DNA of 64,000 nucleotides from Arboricoccus pini (GTDB taxonomy: Bacteria; Pseudomonadota; Alphaproteobacteria; Geminicoccales; Geminicoccaceae). This document shows positions 1,315 to 17,163 of this stretch, one piece after another. The notes under the pieces are model-generated. The model worked only from the letters and a program-made list of their open reading frames with translations, was not told the origin of the DNA and did no database searches. The DNA is taken from assembly GCF_900187945.1 (NCBI RefSeq), contig NZ_FYEH01000003.1, positions 62,001 to 126,000 of the forward strand. The letters run 5' to 3'. Position numbers and translations under genes: made by a program. How positions within the stretch are numbered: position 1 is the first letter of the stretch; every line of letters begins with the position of its first letter.

Positions 1315-1845
1315 ATGCCCCTTGGCAAACCCGGCCGTCTCATTCCCAGCCTAGCCTGTCTGCTGGCCCTCTCGGCCTGCGCCGAACCCTTCGTCTATCA
1401 GAGCCCCGACAGCGCCGCGCCGACTTTGAGCGGTACGGCCTCGCTCGCCCCCTCTGCCCCTCCACCGGCCAATGCAGGTGCGGCCGAAGGCGGCATTGCC
1501 GCCGCATCGGCGGCCACGGCCGAGCGCTGCCCACCCCTGGACTTCAAGCTTAGCATCGCTAGTGGCGGCACCATCGCCGGCGACGTCAGCGGCGCCCAGG
1601 GACATTATTACGCCTCGGGCGAGCTCTACGAAAACGGCAACATCCTGGTCCAGCTCTGGAAACCCACCTACTGGCCGAATGGCCCAGACCAGGCACCTGG
1701 CGAGAAGCCGTTCGCCGTCTGGCGCGGCACCGTAGCCGACCAGCAGGTGCGCCTCTACGAACAGCCCCCCGCGACCTGCCGCCGCAGCCTTGCGGTGCCG
1801 GCTGGCGAAATCGACGCGGCAGCGATCACCCGCGCGCCGCAATAG
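1315..1845 (+). CDS. Small outer-membrane-type lipoprotein, unknown function
   Basis: This encodes a 176-aa protein with a classic lipoprotein signal: basic N-terminus, hydrophobic core, lipobox LSAC with the acylated Cys at residue 22. I chose the ATG at 1315 rather than the in-frame ATG at 1297 because GGAG sits 8 nt upstream and the signal peptide then has the usual length. After the Cys comes an Ala/Pro/Ser-rich flexible stretch (about residues 25-75), then a compact C-terminal part with CPPLDFKLS and a later ATCRRS, whose two Cys could form a disulfide. I do not recognise the family. It stands alone between ettA and a strong terminator at 1865-1898. Confidence 0.75.
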   Translation: MPLGKPGRLIPSLACLLALSACAEPFVYQSPDSAAPTLSGTASLAPSAPPPANAGAAEGGIAAASAATAERCPPLDFKLSIASGGTIAGDVSGAQGHYYASGELYENGNILVQLWKPTYWPNGPDQAPGEKPFAVWRGTVADQQVRLYEQPPATCRRSLAVPAGEIDAAAITRAPQ

Positions 1846-1864
1846 GTCTTCAGGCCGCCAAGAG

Positions 1865-1898
1865 GGGCTGGCGCCTTCGGGCACCGGCCCTTTTTTTT
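1865..1898 (+). terminator. Rho-independent terminator of the lipoprotein gene
   Basis: An 11-nt stem (GGGCTGGCGCC / GGCACCGGCCC, one mismatch and one G-U pair) with a stable TTCG tetraloop is followed by eight T residues, 19 nt after the stop codon. Confidence 0.92.
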
Positions 1899-2157
1899 CG
1901 CCCGCGCCCGGAAAAGCCCGTGCTCAAAAAATCGCCACTGGATGGTCCTTGAGCAGCGCCCCCCACTTTGTTGCACCCGCGTGCTTCTTTGCTAACAAAT
2001 CACCACAAAACACCCGGTTTTACTGCATTTCCCGGCAATGGAGGAATGCTTAAACGCAGCTTCTCAGCGGGCGTGCAAAACTCGATATACCCACTCGTGA
2101 AACACATCTGCTCAGCCAATCGGCAAGCAGCACATCTTTTAGACTTAGGAGTTCACC
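1899..2157. other. Non-coding region upstream of the DUF1127 gene
   Basis: No gene is seen. It is more AT-rich than its surroundings and must hold the promoter of the DUF1127 gene. A 7-bp inverted repeat TGCTCAA / TTGAGCA lies at 1921-1927 and 1949-1955. AGGAG precedes the ATG at 2158. GATATA near 2089 could be a -10 element, but I see no convincing -35 for it. Confidence 0.5.
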
Positions 2158-2376
2158 ATGGCTGCCCAGATCGTGCGCCCGTCGCATGCGGCCACCCAGG
2201 AGCGGGGCTTTCTCGCCTCGATTTTCGGACGCTTCACCGGCTCGTTCGCCGAATATCGTCGCTTCAACCGCACGCGTAATGAGCTGGATTCGCTCACAGA
2301 CCGCGAGCTCGCCGATATCGGCCTCAACCGTGCCGACATCGACAACGTCGCCTGGCGCTGCGCGCATCGTCGCTGA
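2158..2376 (+). CDS. DUF1127 (YjiS-like) small protein
   Basis: A 72-aa, Arg-rich small protein. The DUF1127 signature fills the C-terminal half: an RFNRTRNELDSLTDRELADIGL stretch with the conserved L-x-x-L-x-D-x-x-L-x-D-I-G-[LI]-x-R pattern, ending in a basic tail. The N-terminal part is polar with a short amphipathic helix. A strong Shine-Dalgarno AGGAG precedes the ATG. Such proteins are widespread in alphaproteobacteria. The best-studied one, CcaF1 of Rhodobacter sphaeroides, is an RNA-binding protein cotranscribed with the CcsR stress RNAs and acts on RNA stability. Here too the 3' region carries CTCCC/CCTCCC motifs and a terminator, so the same protein-plus-sRNA architecture is inferred. 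The RNA-binding role is by analogy only. Confidence 0.9.
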   Translation: MAAQIVRPSHAATQERGFLASIFGRFTGSFAEYRRFNRTRNELDSLTDRELADIGLNRADIDNVAWRCAHRR

Positions 2377-2544
2377 TGAGGCAACGCTACTGAAGAGACC
2401 GCAGCCGTAGAGGCGGGCGGTTGATGCCCTGGCAGCGATGCCGGACGTAGCGTCCCTCCCAGCCGACGGCTCCTCCCTCGACGGTAGCTTCTGGCTTTTC
2501 ATCGACAGACAAGCGCCCGGTACCAATGGTACCGGGCGCTTTTT
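2377..2544 (+). ncRNA. Candidate CcsR/Cuckoo-type anti-SD sRNA in the DUF1127 3' region
   Basis: Between the DUF1127 stop and its terminator is a structured stretch with no ORF. GGCA-GCGA-TGCC (2431-2442) forms a GNRA-capped hairpin. GGACG-TAG-CGTCC (2443-2455) is followed by single-stranded CTCCC (2456-2460). A hairpin GCCGACG / CGACGGT (2462-2468, 2479-2485; 6 of 7 pairs) displays GCTCCTCCCT in its loop. CTCCC and CCTCCC are complementary to Shine-Dalgarno sequences. Loop-exposed CUYCYCC-type motifs behind a DUF1127 ORF are the hallmark of the alphaproteobacterial CcsR/Cuckoo RNAs. Release of an sRNA by processing of the mRNA is inferred, not seen. Confidence 0.6.
2512..2544 (+). terminator. 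Strong intrinsic terminator of the DUF1127/sRNA transcript
   Basis: A perfect 13-bp stem (AGCGCCCGGTACC 2512-2524, AAT loop, GGTACCGGGCGCT 2528-2540) runs straight into a T-run (2540-2544). It lies immediately before the convergent cobE stop. The minus-strand side has only a short T-tract, so it mainly serves the plus strand. Confidence 0.95.
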
Positions 2545-2545
2545 G

Positions 2546-2977
2546 TCAGTTTCGGGGCCCGGAACTGAACCCGTCCTCAGGGTCGATTCCATCCCCATGG
2601 GCCAGGGCACAGGTCAGATGCGACGCCCGCCGCTTACCGACCAGGAGCAGCGCCCCCCTACCGGCCGCTTCGAGCGCCGCCGCCTCGGCAACGCTGGCAA
2701 CGCCCACCAGCTCTTCCACCCGCATCGAGGGTGTGGGCACCCTTGCGCCCGCCAGTCGCTCGGCCGGATAGCCCAGCAGCGGACAATCCAAGGCCATCGC
2801 CAAGGCGCGCAATGCCGGATGACCGATCCGGCGCTCGAGGGAGACGATGCTGGCGAGTTCGGCCGCCTTTCGCTCCCCCTCGTCCAGCACCGCCAGAGCG
2901 AGCGCCAAGAGTGCCTGGGCATCAGCCCCGCTCGAGAGCCCGACGCCCAAGATCAACCTTTCGCCCACCTCGCTCAT
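2546..2977 (-). CDS. cobE: Cobalamin biosynthesis protein CobE (CbiG C-terminal family)
   Basis: A 143-aa protein matching the CbiG_C/CobE fold. It begins with LGVGLSSGADAQALLAL (the family's G-[VI]-G-x-x-x-x-x-[AT]-x-x-[LI] start), then SIVSLERRIGHPALRALA, CPLLGYPAERLAGARVPTPS and SVAEAAALEAAGRGALLLVGKR. In the aerobic B12 pathway CobE is a small protein thought to handle corrin-ring intermediates. The frame is open 42 codons further upstream, but the ATG at 2977 starts the conserved domain and has AAGG just upstream. It lies 85 nt downstream of phoD on the same strand. Unusually, it is not next to the corrin-ring methyltransferase genes; other cobalamin genes (cobB, cobT, cobS) occur within 12 kb. 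Confidence 0.85.
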   Translation of the reverse strand: MSEVGERLILGVGLSSGADAQALLALALAVLDEGERKAAELASIVSLERRIGHPALRALAMALDCPLLGYPAERLAGARVPTPSMRVEELVGVASVAEAAALEAAGRGALLLVGKRRASHLTCALAHGDGIDPEDGFSSGPRN

Positions 2978-3062
2978 CCGCCTTTTTGACCAGCCAGCTC
3001 GGACGCCCCGGTATTCGGGGCTCAGAAAAAGGCCGCGCCTTGCAGATAATCCGAGGCTGGGC

Positions 3063-4697
3063 TCAGACGCTAGGCTCCAGCTCCTTGGTGAACAAGGTGG
3101 CACCGTTCAGGTCCTTGAGGCGCACGGTCATGACCTCGCTCTCGCCATCGATCGTCACTTCGCCAAAGAACTGCATGCCGGCGGCGGGCGAGAGGCTTTG
3201 CTGCCCTGGGGGCGGCGCCTTCATGTAGACCACCTGTGGTCCGAACGTGTTGTCGAGCTGGTTCGGGCCGAACGTACCGGCATTCAAGGGGCCGGAGACA
3301 AATTCCCAGAACGGCAGAAAATCCTGGAACGCCGCTTTGTCTGGGTCATAGTAATGCGCGGCCGTGTAGTGGACATCGGCCGTCAGCCAGACCGTGTTCC
3401 GGATCTGATTGTCGCGGATAAAGCGAAGAATGTCGGCCACCTCCAGTTCGCGACCCTTGGGCGCTCCGTTATCGCCGTTCGCCCAGGCTTCCGTGCCCTT
3501 GCTGTTGACGGCATCGTCCCACACGCAAAGCCCGATCGGCATGTCGCAGGCGATGACCTTCCATGTGGCGTTGGAAGCCAAGAGGCGCTGCTTCAGCCAG
3601 CGGATCTGCGCTTCGCCGAGACAGCGCGTCTCCGGCGACATCTCGGTCTGCAACCCGTCCGTATCGTTGCGGCCGCGATAGGGCCGCATGTCGATGCGCA
3701 TCACCTCGAGCGAGGGGCCATAGGCGAAGTTCTGGTAGATCCGCTGCGGATCCAGCGGATGGCGACGCACGGGATAATAATCGAAGAACGCATTCATTGC
3801 CTGAGGTGCGAGCACTGAAACGCGCGTCTCGTTTCGGTAGAGCTTGTTGGTATCCAGCCGCTTCTCCCAGAACCAGTTATTCGTAACCTCGTGATCGTCC
3901 CACTGGATGAAGCTGGCCGTCCTGGCATTGAACGCGCGCACATTCTCGTCCAGCAGATTATAGGCGTGGGCACCTCGATACTCGGCCAGATTCTCAGCCG
4001 CCTTCGACTTTGCCTCGGTGACGATGTTCTTCCAGATCGTGCCGTCCGGCAGCCTGACTTCCGCAGCGAGCGGCCCGTCCGCGTAGATCGTATCGCCCGA
4101 ATGGATGAAAAAATCTGGGTCGGCCTCGAGCATGGTCTTATAGATCTTGATCCCGCCCATCTCGGGATTGATGCCCCAGCCCTGCCCGACCATGTCGCCC
4201 GACCAGGTGAACTTGATGTCGCGGCGGCCTGCAGGCGGCGTCTTGAAGCTGCCTTTGACTGGCACGCTGTTCGTCTTGAGATCGGCGAAATCGGTGAACG
4301 TCACCTCGTAGAAGATCGTCTGGCCGGCAGGCAGGCCATCGACATCGATCTTGCCGGAGAAATCCGTGTCGGCCAGGACGTTCAAGAACGGCAACTCGCG
4401 GGCATTCTTCATGCTCTCGACGGTCGACCAGCGCACGCTCATCCGTGCCGGCCGGTCGGACCGCGCCCAGAGCATGGCCCGGTCGCCCAGGACGTCACCA
4501 GCCTGCACGCCCGATGGCAGCTGCGGCCGCATCGAATCCGACGTCACGATGGCCGGCGCCGCAACCGTTCCCGCTGCCATTGCTTTGAGCGGCTGCCCCA
4601 TCGCCAGGGCCGTGCCCATCACTGCTGAACCGCGAATGAGCGAACGGCGGGAGAAAGCGGGCCCGCTGGCTGATGCGGGAAAATGTAGCTTGGGCAT
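3063..4697 (-). CDS. phoD: PhoD-type alkaline phosphatase, Tat-exported
   Basis: This encodes a 544-aa periplasmic phosphoesterase. The N-terminus carries a twin-arginine signal (SRRSLIRG, Arg17-Arg18) followed by a hydrophobic stretch, as expected for a PhoD that folds with its Ca/Fe centre in the cytoplasm. An N-terminal beta-rich domain (about residues 55-150, SVRWSTVES, FYEVTFTDF) precedes the metallophosphatase core. The core has HSGDTIYADGP, QWDDHEVTNNW and TADVHYTAAHYY supplying metal ligands. PhoD releases phosphate from phosphomono- and diesters. It is divergent from cobB across a 122-bp gap that must hold both promoters; I saw no convincing pair of Pho boxes. cobE follows on the same strand. 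Length is normal for the family. Confidence 0.95.
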   Translation of the reverse strand: MPKLHFPASASGPAFSRRSLIRGSAVMGTALAMGQPLKAMAAGTVAAPAIVTSDSMRPQLPSGVQAGDVLGDRAMLWARSDRPARMSVRWSTVESMKNARELPFLNVLADTDFSGKIDVDGLPAGQTIFYEVTFTDFADLKTNSVPVKGSFKTPPAGRRDIKFTWSGDMVGQGWGINPEMGGIKIYKTMLEADPDFFIHSGDTIYADGPLAAEVRLPDGTIWKNIVTEAKSKAAENLAEYRGAHAYNLLDENVRAFNARTASFIQWDDHEVTNNWFWEKRLDTNKLYRNETRVSVLAPQAMNAFFDYYPVRRHPLDPQRIYQNFAYGPSLEVMRIDMRPYRGRNDTDGLQTEMSPETRCLGEAQIRWLKQRLLASNATWKVIACDMPIGLCVWDDAVNSKGTEAWANGDNGAPKGRELEVADILRFIRDNQIRNTVWLTADVHYTAAHYYDPDKAAFQDFLPFWEFVSGPLNAGTFGPNQLDNTFGPQVVYMKAPPPGQQSLSPAAGMQFFGEVTIDGESEVMTVRLKDLNGATLFTKELEPSV

Positions 4698-16158: not shown

Positions 16159-17163
16159 TCATGACGGCATCACTGCATCACCCAGCATCTTCATGTAGCT
16201 TGGCCTGCCAAGGAGCTCTTTATTTGGCAACTTTTGCCCGCTCATCAGGCCGCGTAGCTCGGCGATGTCCTTAAAATCGCGCGCCGTCATCCAGGCTCGG
16301 AGGTCATCAAGCCAGATGCTCAGGCAGTTCGGGCCGTAGCGCAGCACGGCAGAGCTCGTCATGACGACGTCCGCGCCGGCTAGCAGAGCCTTCACCACGT
16401 CATCGGCACGATCCACCCCCGTCGATGCGGCGAGCGAGGCTTTCAGACGCCCGGCCAACAGCGAGATCCACAAGAGCGGCAGCCGCATCTCCTCCGGCCG
16501 GCTGAGCGGCATGTGGGTATCAAACGCCAGCCGCACGATGTCGATATCGGGCTGGACCAAGCGGTTGAACAGGACGAGCCCGTCGGCGCCTGCCTCGACG
16601 AGGCGCATGGCGAAATGACCGAGCGAACTGACAAAGGGCCCGAGCTTCACCGCGACGGGCACGTTCACGACCCGGCGCACCGATGCCAGGATGTGCAAGA
16701 TGCGCTCCTCAACCTCGCGCCCGTCGAGCGTGATGTCGATCGGAACGAGGGCGACATTAAGCTCGATCGCCTGCGCGCCCGCCTGCTGCAACAATTGCGC
16801 ATAGTTGGTCCAGCCCGCGTCTGTCGCACCGTTCAGGCTGGCGATCACCGGGATGGACAGCGCGGCCCGGGCGCGGCGAACAAGATCGAGATACGCATCG
16901 GGACCCACACCGTAGGGCCCGGCAATCGGCTCCGGGAAATAGGACGTGGCCTCGGGCGAGTTGTTGGCGTGGAGATCATAGATCTGGGCCTCAAGCGCCG
17001 TTTCGGCCTCGATCTGTTCCTCGAACAGCGAGGGCAGTACCACGGCAGCGGCCCCGGCATCCTCGAGGTGGCGCAGGTGGTCGAGATGCGCGTTCGGCGG
17101 CGCCGCGGACGCGACCAGCGGGTTCTTTAGCGTCAGACCGAGATATTGCGTCGTCAATGACAT
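16159..17163 (-). CDS. Dihydroorotate-dehydrogenase-like flavoprotein
   Basis: A 334-aa FMN-dependent TIM-barrel protein of the class I dihydroorotate dehydrogenase superfamily. It opens with TTQYLGLTLKNPLVASAAPPN, the PyrD-like substrate/FMN start, followed by PVIASLNGATDAGWTNYAQLLQQAGAQAIELNVA and PVAVKLGPF. The C-terminal phosphate-binding region is ALLAGADVVMTSSAVLRYG. It is last in the nifJ operon, 205 nt after nifJ. Homologues of this 'DHODH-like' branch commonly accompany 2-oxoacid:ferredoxin oxidoreductase genes; their role is unclear and need not involve pyrimidines. The true pyrD would be expected elsewhere. Confidence 0.85.
   Translation of the reverse strand: MSLTTQYLGLTLKNPLVASAAPPNAHLDHLRHLEDAGAAAVVLPSLFEEQIEAETALEAQIYDLHANNSPEATSYFPEPIAGPYGVGPDAYLDLVRRARAALSIPVIASLNGATDAGWTNYAQLLQQAGAQAIELNVALVPIDITLDGREVEERILHILASVRRVVNVPVAVKLGPFVSSLGHFAMRLVEAGADGLVLFNRLVQPDIDIVRLAFDTHMPLSRPEEMRLPLLWISLLAGRLKASLAASTGVDRADDVVKALLAGADVVMTSSAVLRYGPNCLSIWLDDLRAWMTARDFKDIAELRGLMSGQKLPNKELLGRPSYMKMLGDAVMPS

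Follow-up and report, generated by a model that had tools for sequence, protein, structure and literature searches.

The DUF1127 gene studied here is followed by an untranslated 3′ tail, which harbors two CU-rich anti-Shine-Dalgarno (anti-SD) stretches and ends at a strong intrinsic terminator. At best, this tail is a degenerate relative of the CIN1/CcaF1-CcsR loci; it does not constitute a demonstrated CcsR or Cuckoo RNA. We tentatively read it as a reduced CIN1/CcaF1-CcsR-like anti-SD RNA possessing one or two seeds and none of the CcsR hairpins, and give this reading somewhat less than an even chance. About as likely is the assumption that the tail is the ordinary 3′ UTR of a monocistronic DUF1127 gene, whose CU stretches arose by chance in C-rich DNA and have no function. 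In the following, the window denotes the whole stretch of DNA that was analysed (64 kb).

Known DUF1127-associated RNAs

As far as the available text of the cited sources goes, short DUF1127 genes associated with CcsR-like RNAs make up the CIN1 locus (PMC10253847). In Rhodobacter sphaeroides, the CcsR RNAs are processed from the 3′ UTR of ccaF1 (PMC8625941), and both RNase E and the 71-aa protein CcaF1 (PMC10253847) play roles in this processing (PMC8625941, PMC10253847). Cuckoo/ar14 RNAs comprise two to four hairpins with the motif residing in a loop or in an unpaired region (PMC4504443, PMC3927594, PMC10746234). The anti-SD motifs of one of these RNAs, NfeR1, silence ntrB via pairing at the translation start (PMC10746234). 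For arginine-rich DUF1127 proteins, binding to RNA (CcaF1) or to proteins (YjiS, Agrobacterium PhoR) is considered possible (PMC12501420). The literature, which was covered in part and thus leaves absence unproven, disclosed no tail of this kind beyond those already described for Rhodobacter and rhizobia.

Organization of the locus

The initial annotation had placed a DUF1127 gene in this region, which was confirmed. The product of the ORF 2158-2376, which is preceded by AGGAG at 2147-2151, matched PF06568 with 53.8 bits (E 1.6e-14), clearly above the curated cut-off of 23.3. Five DUF1127 matches were detected in the 4.07-Mb genome to which the window belongs, among which the gene of the window scored best. 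The locus comprises the following features:

1864..1898, plus strand: terminator of the upstream ORF, a GC-rich hairpin followed by 8 T (by eye)
2147..2151, plus strand: AGGAG as ribosome-binding site, 6 nt before the ATG of the DUF1127 gene (from the sequence)
2158..2376, plus strand: DUF1127 gene, 72 aa including 12 Arg (PF06568 Pfam match)
2377..2510, plus strand: untranslated stretch of 134 nt from the stop codon to the terminator, containing no supported gene
2454..2460, plus strand: anti-SD stretch 1, CCCTCCC (from the sequence)
2470..2477, plus strand: anti-SD stretch 2, CTCCTCCC, covering 8 of 9 positions in CCTCCTCCC (from the sequence)
2511..2541, T tract 2540-2544, plus strand: intrinsic terminator with a perfect 14-bp stem and an AAT loop (fold computation)

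The stretch preceding the terminator had been described as free of ORFs, and the four tested ORFs overlapping the tail revealed no Pfam family. Upstream of the DUF1127 gene resides an ORF (1297-1845), for which no Pfam family was matched either. On the other side, a minus-strand gene (2546-3103) encoding a CbiG C-terminal domain runs towards the DUF1127 terminator. The own terminator of the upstream ORF and the convergent CbiG gene give the DUF1127 gene and its tail the appearance of a unit on their own, which suggests that the gene is transcribed separately. A scan of the region 1500-3200 for sigma-70 promoters yielded nothing.

The terminator, which the initial annotation had called near-perfect, exhibited a stem of 14 bp without any mismatch (-28.2 kcal/mol, z -7.1), whose T tract consists of 5 T only. 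A pattern-based terminator scan listed neither 2511-2544 nor 1864-1898. Since the T tract is present on the plus strand only, the terminator is not expected to function for the convergent CbiG gene. The stem 2511-2541 is palindromic and matches its own reverse complement to 97%.

CU-rich stretches in the tail

The second anti-SD stretch is embedded in GCTCCTCCCT, which is present at 2469-2478. The whole genome contains 112 copies of CTCCTCCC over both strands (57 + 55); the expectation for 135 nt on a single strand is about 0.0019 copies. CTCCTCC together with a separate CCCTCC within 135 nt was found in the tail and nowhere else in the window, neither on the forward nor on the reverse strand. 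When 2377-2511 was shuffled 5000 times with dinucleotides preserved, the same pair appeared in only 0.06% of the products. The G+C content of the window amounts to 63% and the tail is locally C-rich; given the uniqueness of the pair and its rarity in shuffles, C-richness alone is insufficient to account for it. This finding argues against an ordinary 3′ UTR, as does the position of the motifs behind a gene family that is already known for such motifs. On the other hand, the site had been picked out of 64 kb for the initial annotation, so that single-site probabilities overstate the case, which favors the ordinary 3′ UTR.

We also counted anti-SD motifs behind DUF1127 genes in general. The 92 rows of the family set, obtained by our own profile and by coordinates, include some loci contributing two rows. 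Loose anti-SD strings followed the gene in 11 of these rows, while shuffles gave a mean of 11.7 and the reverse strand 7; at other ORF ends the strings were found in 17 of 211 cases. There was thus no enrichment of loose strings over shuffles in the family, in agreement with an ordinary 3′ UTR. By this measure, the same holds for 82 other named rows including the arrays, which gave 13 forward and 3 reverse hits at a shuffle mean of 12.2. A different result was obtained with the exact sequence CTCCTCCC: within 200 nt after the DUF1127 genes of the family it was seen three times versus 0.34 expected (Poisson p 0.005), where the expected value was derived from per-genome rates and 88 DUF1127 matches and the observed one from the 92-row set. 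One of the three cases (L026) is located about 104 nt after the stop codon, close to the next gene. The exact 8-mer is therefore modestly over-represented behind DUF1127 genes of the family, which is at variance with functionless sequence.

Hairpins of -11 kcal/mol or lower carrying the motif in the loop occurred in 6 of the 92 family rows on the forward and in one on the reverse strand (shuffles: mean 3.5, max 9). The window tail did not belong to these six. Other ORF ends gave 6 of 369, the other rows 4 of 82 (reverse 0, shuffle mean 2.6) and the array rows 7 of 9 (reverse 0, shuffle mean 0.4). Altogether, the evidence for above-chance motifs behind DUF1127 genes of the family is suggestive at best.

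Predicted structure of the tail

Including the terminator, the whole tail folds at z -5.2. Without the terminator (2377-2508) a z-score of only -1.5 was obtained, and 15 of 200 shuffles folded equally well; three sub-regions of the tail reached z -0.4 to -1.1. The good folding of the whole tail is thus mostly due to the terminator, while the remaining structure is not clearly beyond chance, as would suit an ordinary 3′ UTR. The stacked hairpins reported in the initial annotation thus received weak support or none.

According to the same annotation, GCTCCTCCCT is displayed in the loop of a hairpin, whose stem is formed by six of seven possible pairs. Sequence and stem do exist (-4.3 kcal/mol as drawn), but the stem was predicted in only one of 13 contexts. 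It was part of the minimum-energy fold of an RNA starting exactly at the ATG (2158-2546), where pair probabilities were about 0.5. For 12 other choices of start and end the hairpin was missing from the minimum-energy fold and its probabilities were 0.02 or less. Moreover, the best hairpin enclosing the second motif ranked 78th among the 157 CCTCC sites of the window, and the mean unpaired probability over 2469-2478 varied with the context between 0.34 and 0.65. The single-stranded CTCCC that had been proposed nearby showed a similar dependence. Stretch 1 (2454-2460) was mostly open when the RNA started at the ATG, or at 2420 or later, but mostly paired with the upstream G-rich sequence GGCGGGCGG when folding began at the stop codon.

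Searches with CcsR and ar14 models

The whole window did not match any Rfam family at the gathering threshold. A covariance-model search had been suggested in the initial annotation as a check of its proposal. On 2100-2620, neither CcsR1 (RF02791) nor ar14 (RF02344) matched up to E 5, a result that is in line with an ordinary 3′ UTR and speaks against a member of either family. Anti-hemB scored 20.3 bits on the same region (E 0.023, cut-off 49.5); this match and sub-threshold matches of Pxr and of a Betaproteobacteria toxic sRNA were taken as chance on a hairpin plus terminator.

As controls served seven array loci, six from Rhodobacterales and one from a further member of the class (L022, G052), in which several hairpins displaying CTCCTCC in the loop lie downstream of the DUF1127 stop codon. 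Both CcsR1 and ar14 matched in the three control loci tested (L022, L079 and L109). The ten CcsR1 matches in these loci ranged from 20 to 52 bits, all of them below the gathering score of 65.3, indicating that this model is strict. The ar14 matches, found in three of seven loci searched, were above the gathering score in L109 and below it in L022 and L079.

In addition, we constructed a hairpin model from 25 of 40 CcsR-type units of the seven loci, after 15 units, mostly near-copies or irregular ones, had been dropped by eye. At the tail, this model matched only the loop sequence CTCCTCCCT over 9 nt, without a stem and with 7.7 bits, while antisense to the terminator stem it gave 10.1. Eight control hairpins of L022 and L079, two loci which also fed the model, reached 43-54 bits. 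Over the whole genome to which the window belongs, no match below E 0.69 was obtained. Applied to 59 of 228 loci, the model recovered no Roseomonas-type or Pseudolabrys locus and is thus biased towards hairpins like those from which it was built. The best match of this model in the window (16468-16515; 16.7 bits, E 0.035) lies antisense in a 334-aa ORF (16159-17163, minus strand) and was dismissed as chance.

The seven array-bearing DUF1127 rows and one other form one clade (95/82), from which the protein of the window is excluded. The rows of the window and of genome G011 both attach to a multifurcation of 81 rows in this tree, which comprised 142 of 184 rows and 45 columns, left 49 of 130 inner branches open and was used for the array clade only.

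It is therefore very unlikely that the tail genuinely belongs to the CcsR/Cuckoo (ar14-like) sRNA family as an RNA of one or two hairpins. Its location after a DUF1127 gene, the agreement of CTCCTCCCT with the loop consensus of the CcsR-type model, and the hairpin folding from the ATG would fit such a member, but the stem remained unmatched by the model, and the energy of the hairpin, which is missing in most contexts, is average. Furthermore, the terminator of the window has an AAT loop, whereas in four control loci a motif hairpin is followed by a T-rich run.

Common to the window and the CcaF1-CcsR1-4 locus of Rhodobacter sphaeroides (RF02791) are a small DUF1127 protein (72 versus 71 aa), anti-SD motifs and a terminator. 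However, one near-full and one partial motif stand against the four hairpins of Rhodobacter sphaeroides, and the window has neither a supported motif stem nor a motif in the terminator loop nor a model match; its DUF1127 protein also lies outside the array-bearing clade. With Cuckoo/ar14 (RF02344; SmelA075/SmelA099, NfeR1) the window shares an 8-of-9 copy of CCUCCUCCC preceding a strong terminator, but it lacks two to four adjacent hairpins with CCUCCUCCC loops; none of its motif hairpins is well supported, and Rfam gave no match. Regarding the features of a CIN1 locus, the DUF1127 gene and the motifs are present, while the structure is not CcsR-like. Of the CcaF1-CcsR/Cuckoo architecture seen by the initial annotation, the layout of gene, anti-SD motifs and terminator thus held up, whereas the hairpins displaying the motif in their loops, with a loop-only match of 7.7 bits, did not.

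Other roles of the C-rich region

The C-rich and partly open stretch before the terminator might also be a Rho-loading (rut-like) or hybrid-terminator element without an antisense seed. Within the window, the 80-nt segments beginning at 2440 and 2450 stand at the 96th percentile in their excess of C over G and at the 98th in YC steps. This excess is moderate, and a rut site would be redundant here as a perfect intrinsic terminator follows directly, so that we regard such an element as highly improbable. Even less probable is a cis switch controlling DUF1127 translation by pairing of a CU stretch with the AGGAG of its own gene (2147-2151), to which CUCCU is complementary by eye, or with GGCGGGCGG of the tail, with which stretch 1 pairs if folding begins at the stop codon. 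The own-site pairing amounts to just 5 bp, as many SD sites would give, and there is no conservation to draw on.

Tails of related DUF1127 genes

A comparison of the tail DNA with 31 genomes of the order, all of them from one family and none from the same genus, recovered nothing apart from the window and the palindromic terminator in it. When 2040-2560 was compared with 60 genomes, matches outside the own genome were restricted to coding DNA (query 242-330). This lack of matching tail DNA elsewhere in the family is expected for an ordinary 3′ UTR. The initial annotation had stated that its proposal would fall if the C-rich loop motifs were not conserved in relatives. With the tail unmatched in 30 relatives our data come close to this case, but motifs of the same type do recur in two genomes.

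The five genomes with the most similar DUF1127 proteins are G007, G029, G011, G005 and G027. In two of them, a C-rich motif is located between the DUF1127 stop and a terminator-like hairpin, namely CCTCCTCCCC in G011, whose DUF1127 protein is 56% identical, and CCCCTCCCC in G007. No C-rich motif was present within 130 nt of the DUF1127 stop in G029, G005, G027 and G030. A hairpin straddling the stop codon can loop out the motif in G007 (-20.9 kcal/mol) and G011 (-12.7 kcal/mol) if the motif is held open; the unconstrained fold closes part of it in both genomes. The downstream neighbor differs as well: the CbiG gene in the window versus a convergent gene for a DUF294 nucleotidyltransferase/CBS protein in G011 and G007. 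Within the own genome, a paralogue (L004, C8; 1693-1840) contains CCCCTCCT few nucleotides before the terminator stem, and its 3′ tail including the terminator folds at z -5.9.

In L017 (G007; about 1690-1790) and L019 (G011; about 1660-1740), the C-rich anti-SD stretch resides right behind the DUF1127 stop, and the possible motif hairpin would draw part of its stem from the end of the coding sequence. Directly behind it, both loci have a long terminator-like hairpin, whose T tract is short or missing.

Anti-SD loop hairpins between the DUF1127 stop and the terminator were also found in L087 and L097 (Roseomonas types) and in L080 (Pseudolabrys). Together with G011 and G007, these single-motif tails resemble the window in the succession of DUF1127 stop, one anti-SD stretch and a terminator or terminator-like hairpin. 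Their best motif-enclosing hairpins, however, have energies of -11 to -21 kcal/mol as against -7 to -9 in the window. A further anti-SD loop hairpin between DUF1127 stop and terminator was observed in L083 (a proteobacterium), which our hairpin model missed. L087, L097, L080 and L083 are possible one-hairpin relatives of CcsR.

Possible function of the tail

If the tail is an anti-SD RNA, the one-gene unit would give rise to the DUF1127 protein of 72 aa, and its mRNA would have a 3′ end of 168 nt, as judged from the predicted transcript ends. The two CU-rich stretches near the terminator would pair with SD sequences (AGGAG/GGAGG). The 3′ end may act as part of the mRNA, or else in the form of a fragment of about 90-160 nt, presumably released by RNase E and protected by the strong terminator hairpin. 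By this means, the tail would block ribosome binding on other mRNAs, perhaps under stress. The own genome carries an Hfq gene (E 4.5e-31) as well as two genes for RNase E/G.

The reading of the tail as an anti-SD RNA is thus based on the motif pair, which is confined to one site of the window and seldom arises in shuffles, on the genome-wide rarity of CTCCTCCC and its excess behind DUF1127 genes, on the motifs in G011, G007 and L004, the hairpins in L087, L097 and L080, the presence of Hfq and RNase E/G, and the precedent of CcaF1/CcsR. Against it stand the missing enrichment of loose strings, the lack of structure apart from the terminator and of any match to the tail, the motif-free genomes G029, G005 and G030, the differing downstream neighbors, the absence of a clear excess of strong hairpins, and the T tract of 5 T.

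Should the anti-SD reading be true, the coupling of protein and sRNA known from Rhodobacter would reach another alphaproteobacterial order, in a form that is undetected by Rfam models, and the tail would be relevant to deciding between RNA and proteins as binding partners of DUF1127 proteins. Otherwise, the tail is an ordinary 3′ UTR and calls for caution, as CTCC-type strings are common in C-rich tails. Two of the five DUF1127 genes of the own genome, G011, G007, the Roseomonas types and Pseudolabrys could also be taken to mean that a minimal DUF1127/anti-SD form is widespread in Alphaproteobacteria outside Rhodobacterales and ancestral, the multi-hairpin CcsR arrays being a later elaboration; we consider this rather unlikely.

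Among the controls, the locus L109 of an uncultured Rhodobacteraceae contained six CTCCTCCC units after the DUF1127 gene (3126-3425), mostly with loops of the ACCTCCTCCCG type. Two ar14 matches above the gathering score and weaker CcsR1 matches fell into the same DNA of this array, which links the two Rfam families.
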